In this document: piece by piece, positions 25,647 to 30,978 of the stretch
How the letters are laid out: each line of letters begins with the position of its first letter
Position numbering within the stretch: the first letter of the stretch is position 1
DNA from: Bernardetia sp.
Lineage (GTDB): Bacteria; Bacteroidota; Bacteroidia; Cytophagales; Bernardetiaceae
Direction: 5' to 3'
DNA: 64,000 nucleotides
NCBI GenBank assembly: GCA_020630575.1
Contig: JAHDBD010000009.1
Span: 1 to 64,000, forward strand
The notes under the pieces: generated by a model
What the model was told of the DNA's origin: nothing
Databases searched by the model: none
Seen by the model: only the letters and a program-made list of their open reading frames with translations
Made by a program: the position numbers and the translations under genes

Positions 25647-27032
25647 ATGGCTAAGAAAAAAGTAAAAACAGCTTATTTTTGTCAAGAATGTGGACACGAG
25701 TCTGCCAAATGGATGGGGAAATGTTCTGCCTGTGAAGAATGGAACACCTATGTAGAAGAAGTAATCGATAAAGGAGCAGACAAAACAGATGTAAAAAAAC
25801 TATGGCAAAGCGATAACGGAAGACGAGCATCCAACAAACCCAAAAAACTTTCTGAAATAGAAAAAACAGATTTTGCTAGAATCTCAACCCACGACGGAGA
25901 ACTCAACCGAGTTTTGGGAAGTGGATTAGTACAAGGTTCTTTAGTTTTGATTGGTGGAGAACCAGGGATTGGAAAATCTACTTTAATGTTACAGGTTGCT
26001 TTGGCTTTGAAAGACCATACTGTTTTATATGTTTCGGGAGAGGAAAGCGAACAGCAAATAAAACTTCGTGCTGAACGTTTGGATGCTTATTCAGAAAACT
26101 GTTTGATATTGAACGAAACAAATACACAAAATATTTTTATTCAGATAGAACAGTCAAAACCTGATGTTTTGATTATTGATTCTATTCAAACGCTTCATAC
26201 AGCACATATTGAGTCATCGGCAGGTAGCGTTTCGCAGGTACGTGAGTGTGCAGCCGAACTCTTGCGTTTTGCCAAAGAAACAGGAACGCCCGTATTTTTG
26301 ATTGGACATATTACAAAAGAGGGTTCACTTGCAGGCCCAAAAGTTTTGGAACACATGGTTGATACGGTGTTGCAATTTGAAGGCGACAGACACATGTCGT
26401 ATCGTATTTTGCGTACTATCAAAAATCGTTTTGGTTCTACTTCCGAGCTTGGAATTTATGAAATGCGCTCAACAGGACTTCGTGAAGTAAGCAATCCATC
26501 CGAAATTTTGATGTCGCAGCGAGATGAAGTTATTGGAGGGATTACTATTGGAACGACAATGGAAGGAAATCGCCCACTTTTGATTGAGGTGCAGTCGCTT
26601 GTCAGTATTGCAGCCTATGGAACGCCACAACGAAGTAGCACAGGTTTTGATGCCAAACGTTTGAATATGCTTTTGGCTGTTTTGGAAAAACGTGGAGGTT
26701 TTAGGCTCGGAACGCAAGATGTTTTCTTGAATATTGCTGGTGGTTTTAAAATTGAAGACCCTTCTATTGATTTGGCTGTCTGTACGTCGCTTATTTCTTC
26801 GTTGGAAAACTCGCCTGTTAGTTCGGATATTTGTTTTGCTGCTGAGGTAGGTTTGGGAGGAGAAATTAGAGCCGTTCAACGCATAGAACAACGTATTTCG
26901 GAAGCTGCAAAACTAGGTTTTCGTCAGATTGTAGTTTCAAAATACAATATAAAAGGATTGGATTTGAAGAAATTTGATATAGAAGTAAAAATTGCCAAAA
27001 CACTTGAAGATGTGATTAAACTGGTTTTTTAA
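25647..27032 (+). CDS. radA: DNA repair protein RadA
   Basis: This 461-residue RecA-like ATPase promotes branch migration in recombination. The N-terminal zinc finger is C12, C15, C26 and C29. Walker A is GGEPGIGKSTLM, the RadA-specific KNRFG motif is present (TIKNRFGSTSELG), and the Lon-protease-like C-terminal domain is at about 290-455. All regions are present at normal length. Its start codon directly follows a short AATTCGTAATT repeat that also precedes three other genes in this window. The TrlF-type gene follows 71 bp downstream. Confidence 0.96.
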   Translation: MAKKKVKTAYFCQECGHESAKWMGKCSACEEWNTYVEEVIDKGADKTDVKKLWQSDNGRRASNKPKKLSEIEKTDFARISTHDGELNRVLGSGLVQGSLVLIGGEPGIGKSTLMLQVALALKDHTVLYVSGEESEQQIKLRAERLDAYSENCLILNETNTQNIFIQIEQSKPDVLIIDSIQTLHTAHIESSAGSVSQVRECAAELLRFAKETGTPVFLIGHITKEGSLAGPKVLEHMVDTVLQFEGDRHMSYRILRTIKNRFGSTSELGIYEMRSTGLREVSNPSEILMSQRDEVIGGITIGTTMEGNRPLLIEVQSLVSIAAYGTPQRSSTGFDAKRLNMLLAVLEKRGGFRLGTQDVFLNIAGGFKIEDPSIDLAVCTSLISSLENSPVSSDICFAAEVGLGGEIRAVQRIEQRISEAAKLGFRQIVVSKYNIKGLDLKKFDIEVKIAKTLEDVIKLVF

Positions 27033-27103
27033 TTCTTTTTTTACCTAAAAAACATTATATTTATTTCATATTTTTAAAACTACAATTATTTTATACTTTC
27101 TTT

Positions 27104-29971
27104 ATGACCTATAATAAATATCCAAAAGGTTCTGAGTGGGCAAAGTGGGATTTGCAGGTACAACCTATAAAAAATGAGTGGTTAGCAAATAATAACTCTG
27201 ATATTTTAAACAAGATTCAACTATCCACAGAGGAATATCTTAAACAAGCAATTAAAAAGGGAATCTCAGTAATAGGTATTACTGACCATAATAATGGAAC
27301 AGCCATTGACTTTGCTTTTAATTTTGCAGAAAATGAAAATATTCAAATTTTAGCAGGTGTAGAACTTGACACTACTGAAGGTTGGCATTTACTTATTTTG
27401 TTTAATCCTAATTTAAAAGAGCGTTTTAACTTAGAATCCTGGAAGGATGTTGTAAATCATATTTTAGGAAATTATGCACAAATAAATCCCCCTTTTTACA
27501 AAGAAAATAGTCATATCAGTAAAAAAATTGGACTATCTACTATTGAATTTATTTTAAAAATATACAATGAAAATATAGGACTAGTGGTTTTTGCTCATTG
27601 TAAATCCAATGACGGTTTTTTTCAGAAGTCAGATGTACAAGGTCGTAAAGATGTCATAGATGCGTTTATAGATAATCGCTTTAAATTCATTTTTGAGATA
27701 AAAGATAAATACGAGCAAAAAGATGAAATATTGAATACTATAAAAGGATGATATAACAACCAAGATATAAAAATACCTATTTTGAGTTCTTCTGATGCCC
27801 ATAAAGCAACACAGGTTGGTTCTACTTTCACTTGGATAAAAGCTAATCCAACGTTTGAAGGTTTAAGACAAATTATTTTTGAACCTGAAAGAATAAAAAT
27901 ACAAGAACAAAATCCTAATACAAAAGAACCATATAATGTTATTAAAAGTGTTCGTTTTATTGATGAATCTGATAGATTTACCAATGAAAAAATATATCTA
28001 AACCCAGACTTAAACACTATTATTGGAGGAAAATCAACAGGGAAATCTCTATTATTGCATTACATAGCAAAAACATTGATTTTTGATAAAAAAATTATAG
28101 ATGAAAAAGGATTAGAGAAAAACTATAATAAAAAAAATAATAAAGGAAAAGAACAAAGTTTTGAAGATTTTTTTGATTTTGATTTTGAAGTTGAATTTGC
28201 AGATGGTAAAAAAATAAGATTAAAGGATAAAGAAAAATATATTGATAAAGAAGGAAATGAGAGAGAGATGCCTAATACAACACTCATTGAATTTATACCT
28301 CAACAATCACTTTCAAAAATAGTAGAAGGACATAATAGAAATGACAAGGAAAGCCCTTATCAAAAATTAGTAGAGAAATCTTTATCAGAAAAAAATGGGT
28401 ATGATGAAGTAAACAAGAAACATGAAGAGAACTGTAAGAATTTAGAGCATCAAATTCAAAATACTCTTACCAAATTATTTGAAACTCAAGAGAGTATTGA
28501 GAATTTGAAAAATGAGCGTTACGAAATGGGAAATCAACAAGATTTTAAGGAGAGTATAACTCAAATTGAAGAAGAAATTACAGCTTTGAAAGATGATTCT
28601 TCACTTTCAGAAGAAGAGAAACAAAACTTTGAAAAGCTACAAAAAGATAAAAATGAAACCTTGCGAGAAATTGATAAAAACCAAAATCAGTTAGAAGCAT
28701 TAAGAAGTTATCAGAGTAAAATAACAGTTGATTGGAATAAGTTTATAAATTCAATTGATGTTGGATACAATACAGTTATCAATGACTTTAACTTATTAGA
28801 AAACAATTTTCTACCCTTGAAAGCAAAGATAGTAGAGGACTTGAAATCTACATTTCAACAGAGTATCGATTCAATTACAAATCAAGAGGAATCACTAAAA
28901 AATAAAATAGAAGAACTAAATAAGAACAAATTACAAATAGAATCAGAATTACAACCTTTTGAAACAAAAACTGCGAACTATGCCAAAATACAAGAATGTG
29001 AAAAAGAAACTCAAGAATTTGAAGTTAAAATAAGAAAAATAACTTCACACGAAGCTGCAATTGAAAATAAACGCCAAGAACTTCAAAGACTAAAAGAAAG
29101 AATAAATACAGATTATCAAAATCTGTTTCAAGACTACAATAACTATGTTGATATTTTAAACAGTAATTATTCTATTATATTTGAAGCTAACGGAGATGAT
29201 AATAAAGACTTGATAGAATTGCATAGTGAATTAGGCTTTGAGTATGATAGTTTTGAAAGCAACTTTCTTTCCCTTTTCAACCGTCAAAGTTCCCAAATAA
29301 ATAAGGATATTTTGACTGACGAACATTTTTTTGATGAGCAAAATCAAATAGAGAAAGATAGATATGTGGAGTATTCTAAAAAGGTTTTTGATTTACTATT
29401 ATCTGAAAATGTAGAAAGTTTAGATTTTATAAAAAATAAAACTCCTAGAATGGCTATTGAAAGTCTTTTTGAAAATCGCTTTAAAGTAGATTATAAGCTA
29501 AAATATGAAAATGATTCGCTTGAAAATATGTCTCAAGGAAAAAAAGGAATAGTTCTTTTGAAATTGTATTTAGCTATTGAAAAAGCTCACTATCCTATTT
29601 TAATAGACCAGCCAGAGGACAATTTAGATAACCGAACTATTTACACTTCTCTAATGGATTTTATCAAAAAACGTAAAATTGCAAGGCAAATAATTATGGT
29701 TACGCATAATGCTAATTTGGTAGTTTCTACGGATGCAGAACAAATAATAGTAGCTAATCAAACTATTTTAAATGAGATAGACGAAGTAACAAATGATAAA
29801 AAATTTAAGTTTGAATATGTTACAGGAGCATTAGAGCATACCAAGAAAAAAGAGGAACATCCAAAAGGTATTTTATATGAACAGGGAATTAGAGAGCATG
29901 TATGTGAAATTTTGGAAGGAGGAGATACTGCCTTTAAAAAGCGAGAAGAAAAATATGGCTTAAAAAAATAA
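27104..29971 (+). pseudogene. TrlF-type PHP domain + SMC-like ATPase, interrupted by an in-frame TGA
   Basis: One continuous frame of 956 codons is broken only by TGA at 27749-27751 (codon 216). The N-terminal part is a PHP phosphoesterase domain (WDLQVQ at 15-20, ITDH at 59-62, GVE at 85-87). Its last metal-binding motif, SSSDAH (228-233), lies just after the TGA, so the two halves make one domain. Then come Walker A GGKSTGKS (308-315), long coiled coils (about 420-680), a signature-like MSQGKKG, Walker B ILIDQPEDNLDN and a VTHNANL His switch. This architecture fits the family I know as TrlF AAA-like ATPases, often found near defence genes. No ATG allows sensible restart after the stop. It may be a nonsense mutation, a sequencing error or readthrough. 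Confidence 0.8.
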
Positions 29972-30009
29972 ACCTTTTTTTAGAATTATTCCTATATAGC
30001 TTTAACAGT

Positions 30010-30978
30010 ATGTCAAAATACAAAATAAATGTTTCTCTCTACCTCATAGCATTCCTACTAACATTCACTTCCTGCAATGCACAAAATAGTGAGAGTAAAA
30101 ACGATTCAAATGATTCTTTGAAGGTTGTTCGAAGTAAAATTAATTCTACTGATTTATCTGCTGATGATTTTCCAAAAGTAGATACAAGAAAAATTCCTCC
30201 TTATGTAGAATTAAGTAGAGATAGCATCAAAAATTTACTTGCTGAAAAAGTAAAGAATAATCAGCCTTTATTTGTACATATTTTTGTTCCTCTTTGTGAT
30301 AATGAAAATCAAGGAATTGTTCCTGTCAATAAATCGCTAGGAGATGGACAAAATTTAAGGACAAATTTGTATTGGGGAGCAGGTTATGGCATCAAAACGC
30401 ATTTCAAACGATTGAAAGAATGGACGCTTTTGAGTAGTCAATTAGATGTAGATTCGATAGTTTTGGAACGTGTTATTTTTAAGAAAAAATACCCAAATGG
30501 AGCGACTGTTTTTCTAGTTGCTGATGCCTATCGTGGCGACAAAATGCACGAATGTTTGACAGATTATTTTGCTTCTTTAGCAGGAAAAAAGAAAGAAATT
30601 TTAGGAGTGGATACTGATTCAACAAAAATAAAAGCCTTTGGAGAAGCTGATTTGATTGCTTTTAATGGACACAATGGGCTTATGGATTCTTATGCAGCTC
30701 TTTTTATAAACGAAGATAACCGAATGCGTGATGCTGTTTCGATTGCTTGTACTTCTCACACTTATTTCAGAAGGCATTTGAATGTCGCTAGAGCTTATCC
30801 ACTTCTTACCACTACAAATCTGCTCGCTCCTGAAGCCTACGGAATGGAAGCTGTGATTGATTCTTGGGCAATGTTAGAAGATGGAAAAACAATTCGTTCG
30901 AAAATAGGAGCTATGTATCACAAAATCCACAAATGTGGATTAAAAGGGGCTACAAATTTATTTCATACTGGGTGGTAA
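30010..30978 (+). CDS. Conserved lipoprotein of unknown function, possible caspase-like fold
   Basis: This 322-residue protein has a lipoprotein signal (LLTFTSCNAQ, Cys at about 23). The body contains the striking segments HIFVPLCDNENQGIVPV, NLYWGAGYGIKTHF and VFLVADAYRG. A strand then ends in GHNG (H221) and another in SIACTSHTYF (C247). A strand-His-Gly followed by a strand-Cys is the order of the catalytic dyad in caspase-like peptidases, so a peptidase or decayed relative is possible, but this is only inference. I cannot name a family. It starts 38 bp after the TrlF-type gene, on the same strand. Confidence 0.7.
   Translation: MSKYKINVSLYLIAFLLTFTSCNAQNSESKNDSNDSLKVVRSKINSTDLSADDFPKVDTRKIPPYVELSRDSIKNLLAEKVKNNQPLFVHIFVPLCDNENQGIVPVNKSLGDGQNLRTNLYWGAGYGIKTHFKRLKEWTLLSSQLDVDSIVLERVIFKKKYPNGATVFLVADAYRGDKMHECLTDYFASLAGKKKEILGVDTDSTKIKAFGEADLIAFNGHNGLMDSYAALFINEDNRMRDAVSIACTSHTYFRRHLNVARAYPLLTTTNLLAPEAYGMEAVIDSWAMLEDGKTIRSKIGAMYHKIHKCGLKGATNLFHTGW

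Follow-up and report, generated by a model that had tools for sequence, protein, structure and literature searches.

The trlF gene belongs to the temperature-restriction locus of Photorhabdus, and in the part of the describing article that is accessible no trlF mutation appears among the temperature-tolerant clones, so that no function was assigned to it (PMC7554251). The accessible part of another article contains neither PHP nor TrlF (PMC7159879). Photorhabdus TrlF has two partners, TrlG and TrlR, and the protein family NF045780 was probably named after this gene. The window analysed here, a 64,000-nucleotide stretch of DNA from Bernardetia sp., contains a gene of the same family that is cut by a TGA codon, and we consider it very likely that a recent nonsense mutation was the cause and would thereby have put a predicted anti-phage gene out of action. 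Like other members, it matches the family profile over its full length, with a PHP and an ATPase part and a score over the cut-off; it differs by one internal stop, by QxQ in PHP motif I and by PHP and ATPase parts that resemble different TrlF lineages.

A TrlF-family frame with one internal stop

The frame (27104..29971, forward strand, 955 codons) runs from an ATG at 27104 to a TAA at 29969-29971 and contains exactly one internal stop, the TGA at 27749-27751 (forward strand, codon 216), which lies ahead of the last PHP metal motif; downstream of it, 739 codons are open in the same frame. The upstream ORF (27104..27751, forward strand, 215 amino acids) encodes a PHP domain without this motif (PF02811, E 4e-9), and the motif itself, SSSDAH (27785..27802, forward strand, residues 228-233), starts 12 codons past the TGA. 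These results bear out the preliminary description, which had reported two segments in one frame split only by this TGA, the last PHP motif downstream of it and a remainder free of further defects. Its statement that no ATG is available for restart stood in part: the first in-frame ATG after the stop, at 28268, is past Walker A, but an alternative start exists in a TTG at 27782..27784 (forward strand). Between the stop and Walker A it is the sole in-frame codon of the types ATG, GTG and TTG, and from it, 30 bases past the stop, runs a 729-amino-acid ORF with both Walker A and Walker B. An out-of-frame ATG at 27748 overlaps the TGA and closes after two codons.

Both halves match the TrlF profile NF045780, residues 8-207 of the first half corresponding to profile positions 1-208 and residues 6-736 of the second half to positions 223-944. 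The family cut-off is 350 bits; the second half alone scores 415.8 bits and the protein read across the stop 496.8. The PHP domain is N-terminal, with PF02811 in the first half and PHP_C (E 8.5e-5) in the second. With this score, an N-terminal PHP domain, Walker A and Walker B, and a frame that is interrupted, the gene is a broken member of the family.

Canonical PHP enzymes carry HxH in motif I and DxH in motif IV. Motif I of the window's protein reads DLQVQ (27149..27163, forward strand), that is, QxQ and not the canonical HxH. It is followed on the same strand by ITDHN (27278..27292), which we take to be motif II, by GVELD (27356..27370), whose E87 is invariant in a 55-row alignment, and by FAHC (27590..27601), presumably motif III. 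SSSDAH, which we regard as the DxH metal motif IV of a canonical PHP phosphoesterase, is encoded in the frame, but after the stop. QxQ was found in all 15 members of the window's PHP class (class 3 in a 202-protein sample), and over all 202 TrlF proteins of that sample motif I is HxH in 125, QxQ in 57, QxH in 12 and of other kinds in 8. This QxQ makes nuclease activity uncertain even for the intact form.

The ATPase part contains Walker A (GGKSTGKS, 28025..28048), a presumed ABC signature-like motif (MSQGKKG, 29528..29548) and Walker B (ILIDQPED, 29597..29620), with long, coiled-coil helices at 28400..29167 (residues 433-688 in the predicted model), all on the forward strand. In a structure predicted with AlphaFold2 from the 55-row alignment (mean pLDDT 86.4, pTM 0.72), residue 216 is the end of a helix, after which come strands at residues 226-228 and 243-246, with the DxH motif between them; judging from this model, the PHP fold of the upstream product would be incomplete, its last strands and DxH ligands missing. 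The predicted ATPase fold resembles SMC/Rad50 heads, and the PHP fold resembles those of EndoQ, RNase AM and the PHP domain of Pol III. A profile search against solved structures gave two weak matches, one of them RAD50, and a phmmer search of the same structures gave none. No relative of the read-through protein was confirmed in collections of genome contigs and viral contigs.

Readings of the stop

An alignment of homologues at codon 216, which the preliminary description had proposed as a check, placed tryptophan at this column in 12 of 14 homologues of the window's PHP class (P0006-P0017; not P0020 and P0022), which makes a single-base nonsense change the simplest history. Overall the column is unconserved, with tryptophan in 15 (the window, read through, included) of 133 aligned TrlF sequences. 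The 739 open codons, together with tryptophan at the aligned residue in these homologues, mean that the stop in the sequence is real, beyond chance. Since there is one stop and no second, and 4-6% of substitutions in this frame are nonsense, neutral change after the break is limited to at most about 0.018-0.026 substitutions per site (95% bound). The gene is also absent from a genome of the same species (G444), which differs by about 6% from the window's genome in aligned blocks. With no other defect in the frame and no copy of the gene in G444, a recent nonsense mutation, one of several explanations offered previously, is the best-supported reading.

An assembly or sequencing error, with the gene intact in the living cell, is an unlikely alternative. 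It would require one base change, the simplest event, in an assembly that is a draft of 94 contigs and 84.5% complete. As a control, genes from two stretches of G444 were matched to two stretches of this assembly at no less than 80% identity over no less than 90% of their length. Of these genes, 54 of 150 and 64 of 149 were kept (118 of 299), genes below either threshold being dropped, so that badly broken genes could escape this control; only one was flagged, and only upstream of its likely start, so that none of the 118 was truly interrupted. The reverse comparison kept 113 genes (53 of 123 and 60 of 125), three of which are broken internally in G444, two by a stop and one by a split frame, with two further flags at C-terminal ends. 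The three genes broken inside in G444 (L092-L102) are intact in the window's genome. These controls show that the window's assembly is without general breakage, and broken genes are to be expected at a low rate in this species.

To place the stop in a wider setting, 95 distinct TrlF matches over the cut-off were collected by searching the phylum of the window (Bacteroidota, going by the names of relatives), its order and two classes (39, then 22, 23 and 11 new), with repeats removed by hand, at most two candidates scored per genome, and stops as the only breaks counted. One internal stop was present in three of them, at three unrelated places: that of the window, a TAG in the PHP part of a gene in a single-contig genome (G332; L018, contig C1) and a TAG at the very codon of the Walker A lysine (G1324; L190, contig C67). 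Such scattered positions point to sporadic losses and not to a recoding site, and they likewise speak against a programmed stop at a single conserved position, a reading that was rejected. In a DnaE control no stop was seen among the best-scoring matches listed (about 150, of 337 matching genomes among 340), which gives P ~0.057 for the difference from 3 of 95 if the number of best-scoring DnaE matches is taken as about 150. Given this value, and the 3 of 113 matched genes that are broken in G444 anyway, there is no sign that TrlF breaks more than other genes or that stops are in excess in the family.

It is highly improbable that the TGA is read as a sense codon and the whole protein made, perhaps under some conditions only, as the preliminary description had entertained under conditional expression or readthrough. 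The 739 codons intact past the stop would fit such decoding, but TGA closes 13 of the 123 ORFs in contig C38 that reach 150 amino acids, the upstream ORF of the broken gene among them, and 18 of the 125 such ORFs in a 200-kb part of contig C1 (31 of 248 in both stretches together); in this genome TGA serves as a normal stop, and RF2 is encoded too. The best match to SelB reached 108.4 bits against a cut-off of 242.25, and no UCA anticodon occurs in the 57 tRNAs called by ARAGORN of 59 tRNA matches, although in a genome that is 84.5% complete a missing SelB or UGA-reading tRNA is no proof. Folding of the RNA after the stop is no better than that of shuffles (z 0.27), the aligned residue is tryptophan and not cysteine, and the two other stop-bearing TrlF genes have their stops elsewhere.

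Four tRNA genes of the window's genome were called with four-base anticodons (L149, L153, L154; contigs C23, C84, C18), which would imply enlarged anticodon loops. Two uncalled tRNA matches (L143, L155; contigs C34, C36) carry inserted sequence in the anticodon arm, of which 54 and 46 positions are absent from the displayed alignments, and share the motif GGTCAAAT.

Equally improbable is a two-protein form, in which the PHP fragment and an ATPase translated from the TTG at 27782 act together. The ORF from this TTG does hold both Walker motifs, but the last PHP strands and the DxH motif would fall on the other chain. Neither is such a split seen elsewhere: no PHP-only homologue ending at this point with a separate ATPase was found, the search with the PHP half returning only the window's ORF and one fragment of 298 amino acids on a 1130-base contig. 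With no homologue of this form, a natural split gene was rejected. Genome-wide recoding of TGA was set aside in view of the ORFs that end in TGA, of RF2 and of the failure to find, in this 84.5%-complete genome, SelB over its cut-off, a UCA anticodon or an RNA fold better than shuffles.

A PHP domain and an ATPase that resemble different lineages

The nonsense mutation favoured above lies in a gene whose two parts resemble different relatives. The window's PHP domain (residues 1-242) is 52-58% identical to those of P0007-P0011 and P0013, whereas the remainder is 29-31% identical to theirs; for the TrlFs of Cellulophaga (P0010) and Flavicella (P0007) the PHP values are 58% and 55%, with 31% for the rest. 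Conversely, in BLASTP alignments its ATPase (residues 247-955) is 61-62% identical to P0002-P0004, whose PHP domains are 22-27% identical to the window's and represent three PHP classes, all other than its own. Identity to the two TrlF lineages switches at about residues 228-246 (27785..27841, forward strand). We infer from these identities that the PHP and ATPase parts are probably of different ancestry. Support around the window's protein in the PHP tree is low (0.43).

The wider pattern was examined in the 202-protein sample, which comprised the window and 201 of 211 retrieved proteins (the best 120 of 1002, the best 120 of 232 and two more); the window's two ORFs, one fragment and seven proteins of fewer than 860 amino acids were left out. 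Among these best matches, 14 PHP classes were distinguished at 40% linkage, and more than one PHP class occurred in 8 of 26 multi-member ATPase clades at 55% linkage, the window's own clade having four members and four classes. In 42 of the 992 pairs that are at least 60% identical after residue 242, the PHP domain is below 30% identity, whereas the four remaining segments stay at or above 30% in all of these pairs; the coiled-coil segments do fall below it where the proteins compared are less alike overall. Along the ATPase tree we counted 46 changes of PHP class, where at least 13 are needed and shuffled labels give about 134, which indicates that the classes mostly track the ATPase tree but that exchange was frequent. 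It is most clearly seen in P0088 and P0196, whose ATPases share 91% identity and whose PHP domains share 18%; P0175/P0193 and P0002/P0003/P0004 are further examples of exchange at a joint behind the DxH motif.

Going by these comparisons, the whole PHP domain appears to have been exchanged repeatedly at one joint just behind the DxH motif. Closely related TrlF ATPases with unrelated-looking PHP domains suggest that the PHP domain is what is exchanged and that the ATPase is a conserved chassis. More tentatively, TrlFs may swap a whole PHP cassette at a fixed joint and thereby change target or effector, a swap that can be likened to that of specificity subunits in restriction systems, and the window's stop might then have been selected because it silences a cassette that is mismatched or costly; this we hold to be possible but doubtful. 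We found no description of PHP-domain exchange at a fixed joint in the open-licence literature, and a literature search for inactivated defence genes gave none. The stop itself is ordinary, and the exchange is the part worth following; its pattern would allow a direct test of which part decides sensing or cutting.

The slot behind radA and likeness to known systems

The gene occupies a variable slot (27033..30017, unstranded) with flanks that are conserved in the genus and variable content, between radA on the left (25647..27032, forward strand, TIGR00416) and a gene without family match on the right (30010..30978, forward strand). The slot was compared in G444 and five congeners (loci L053-L058). 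Both flanks were found in G444, G003, G001 and G004, and radA alone on the fetched pieces of G002 and G005; five of the slot proteins were scanned with Pfam and three with PADLOC. G444 has one protein there, lipoprotein-like by eye, and G003 has a relative of it together with a short DUF1016_N piece that matches the PADLOC candidate family PDC-S02 (E 8e-48). G001 carries a 366-amino-acid protein and a piece that by eye resembles the DUF1016_N piece of G003, G005 a shorter relative, again by eye, of the 366-amino-acid protein, G004 a DUF4476 protein on the opposite strand and G002 a KAP NTPase matching the PADLOC PifA model (E 2e-67). None of the six relatives has TrlF in this slot, and a search with P0002 found a TrlF-like gene anywhere in only one of them (G003), at a different place.

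We read the slot as a site of turnover of partly defence-like genes, and the window's TrlF probably arrived by horizontal exchange into a slot that takes different genes of this kind. The window's gene is a predicted defence gene, a role that fits both its family and its slot, and its breakage is ordinary turnover of such a gene. New defence genes of the genus may be sought in the slot behind radA.

Among described systems, the anti-phage protein Ppl (NF042955) has the same architecture. The second half of the window's protein matches positions 197-879 of the 882 of its profile (E 1e-32) and also the PADLOC Ppl model (E 1e-23); at 112.9 bits against a cut-off of 1000, however, it is not a member. 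An intact form of the window's TrlF might work like Ppl, the head and coiled coil sensing phage-linked DNA ends or nucleotide state, and sensing by the ATPase part could, by family resemblance, license the PHP nuclease. With the stop, the products would be a PHP fragment without its last strands and DxH ligands, and at most small amounts of an ATPase that starts at the TTG at 27782 and lacks a PHP domain, and hence no working enzyme. The ATPase part also matches the Spaf_1101 family of AAA-like ATPases (NF045781) with 115.7 bits, under its cut-off of 475, the best stretch covering only residues 292-668 of the second half. Finally, the predicted model shares a head and coiled-coil fold with the SMC/Rad50 ATPases of Wadjet, Lamassu and MRN. 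In those systems the nuclease-like domain is a separate subunit, whereas in the window's protein it is fused to the ATPase as an N-terminal PHP domain.
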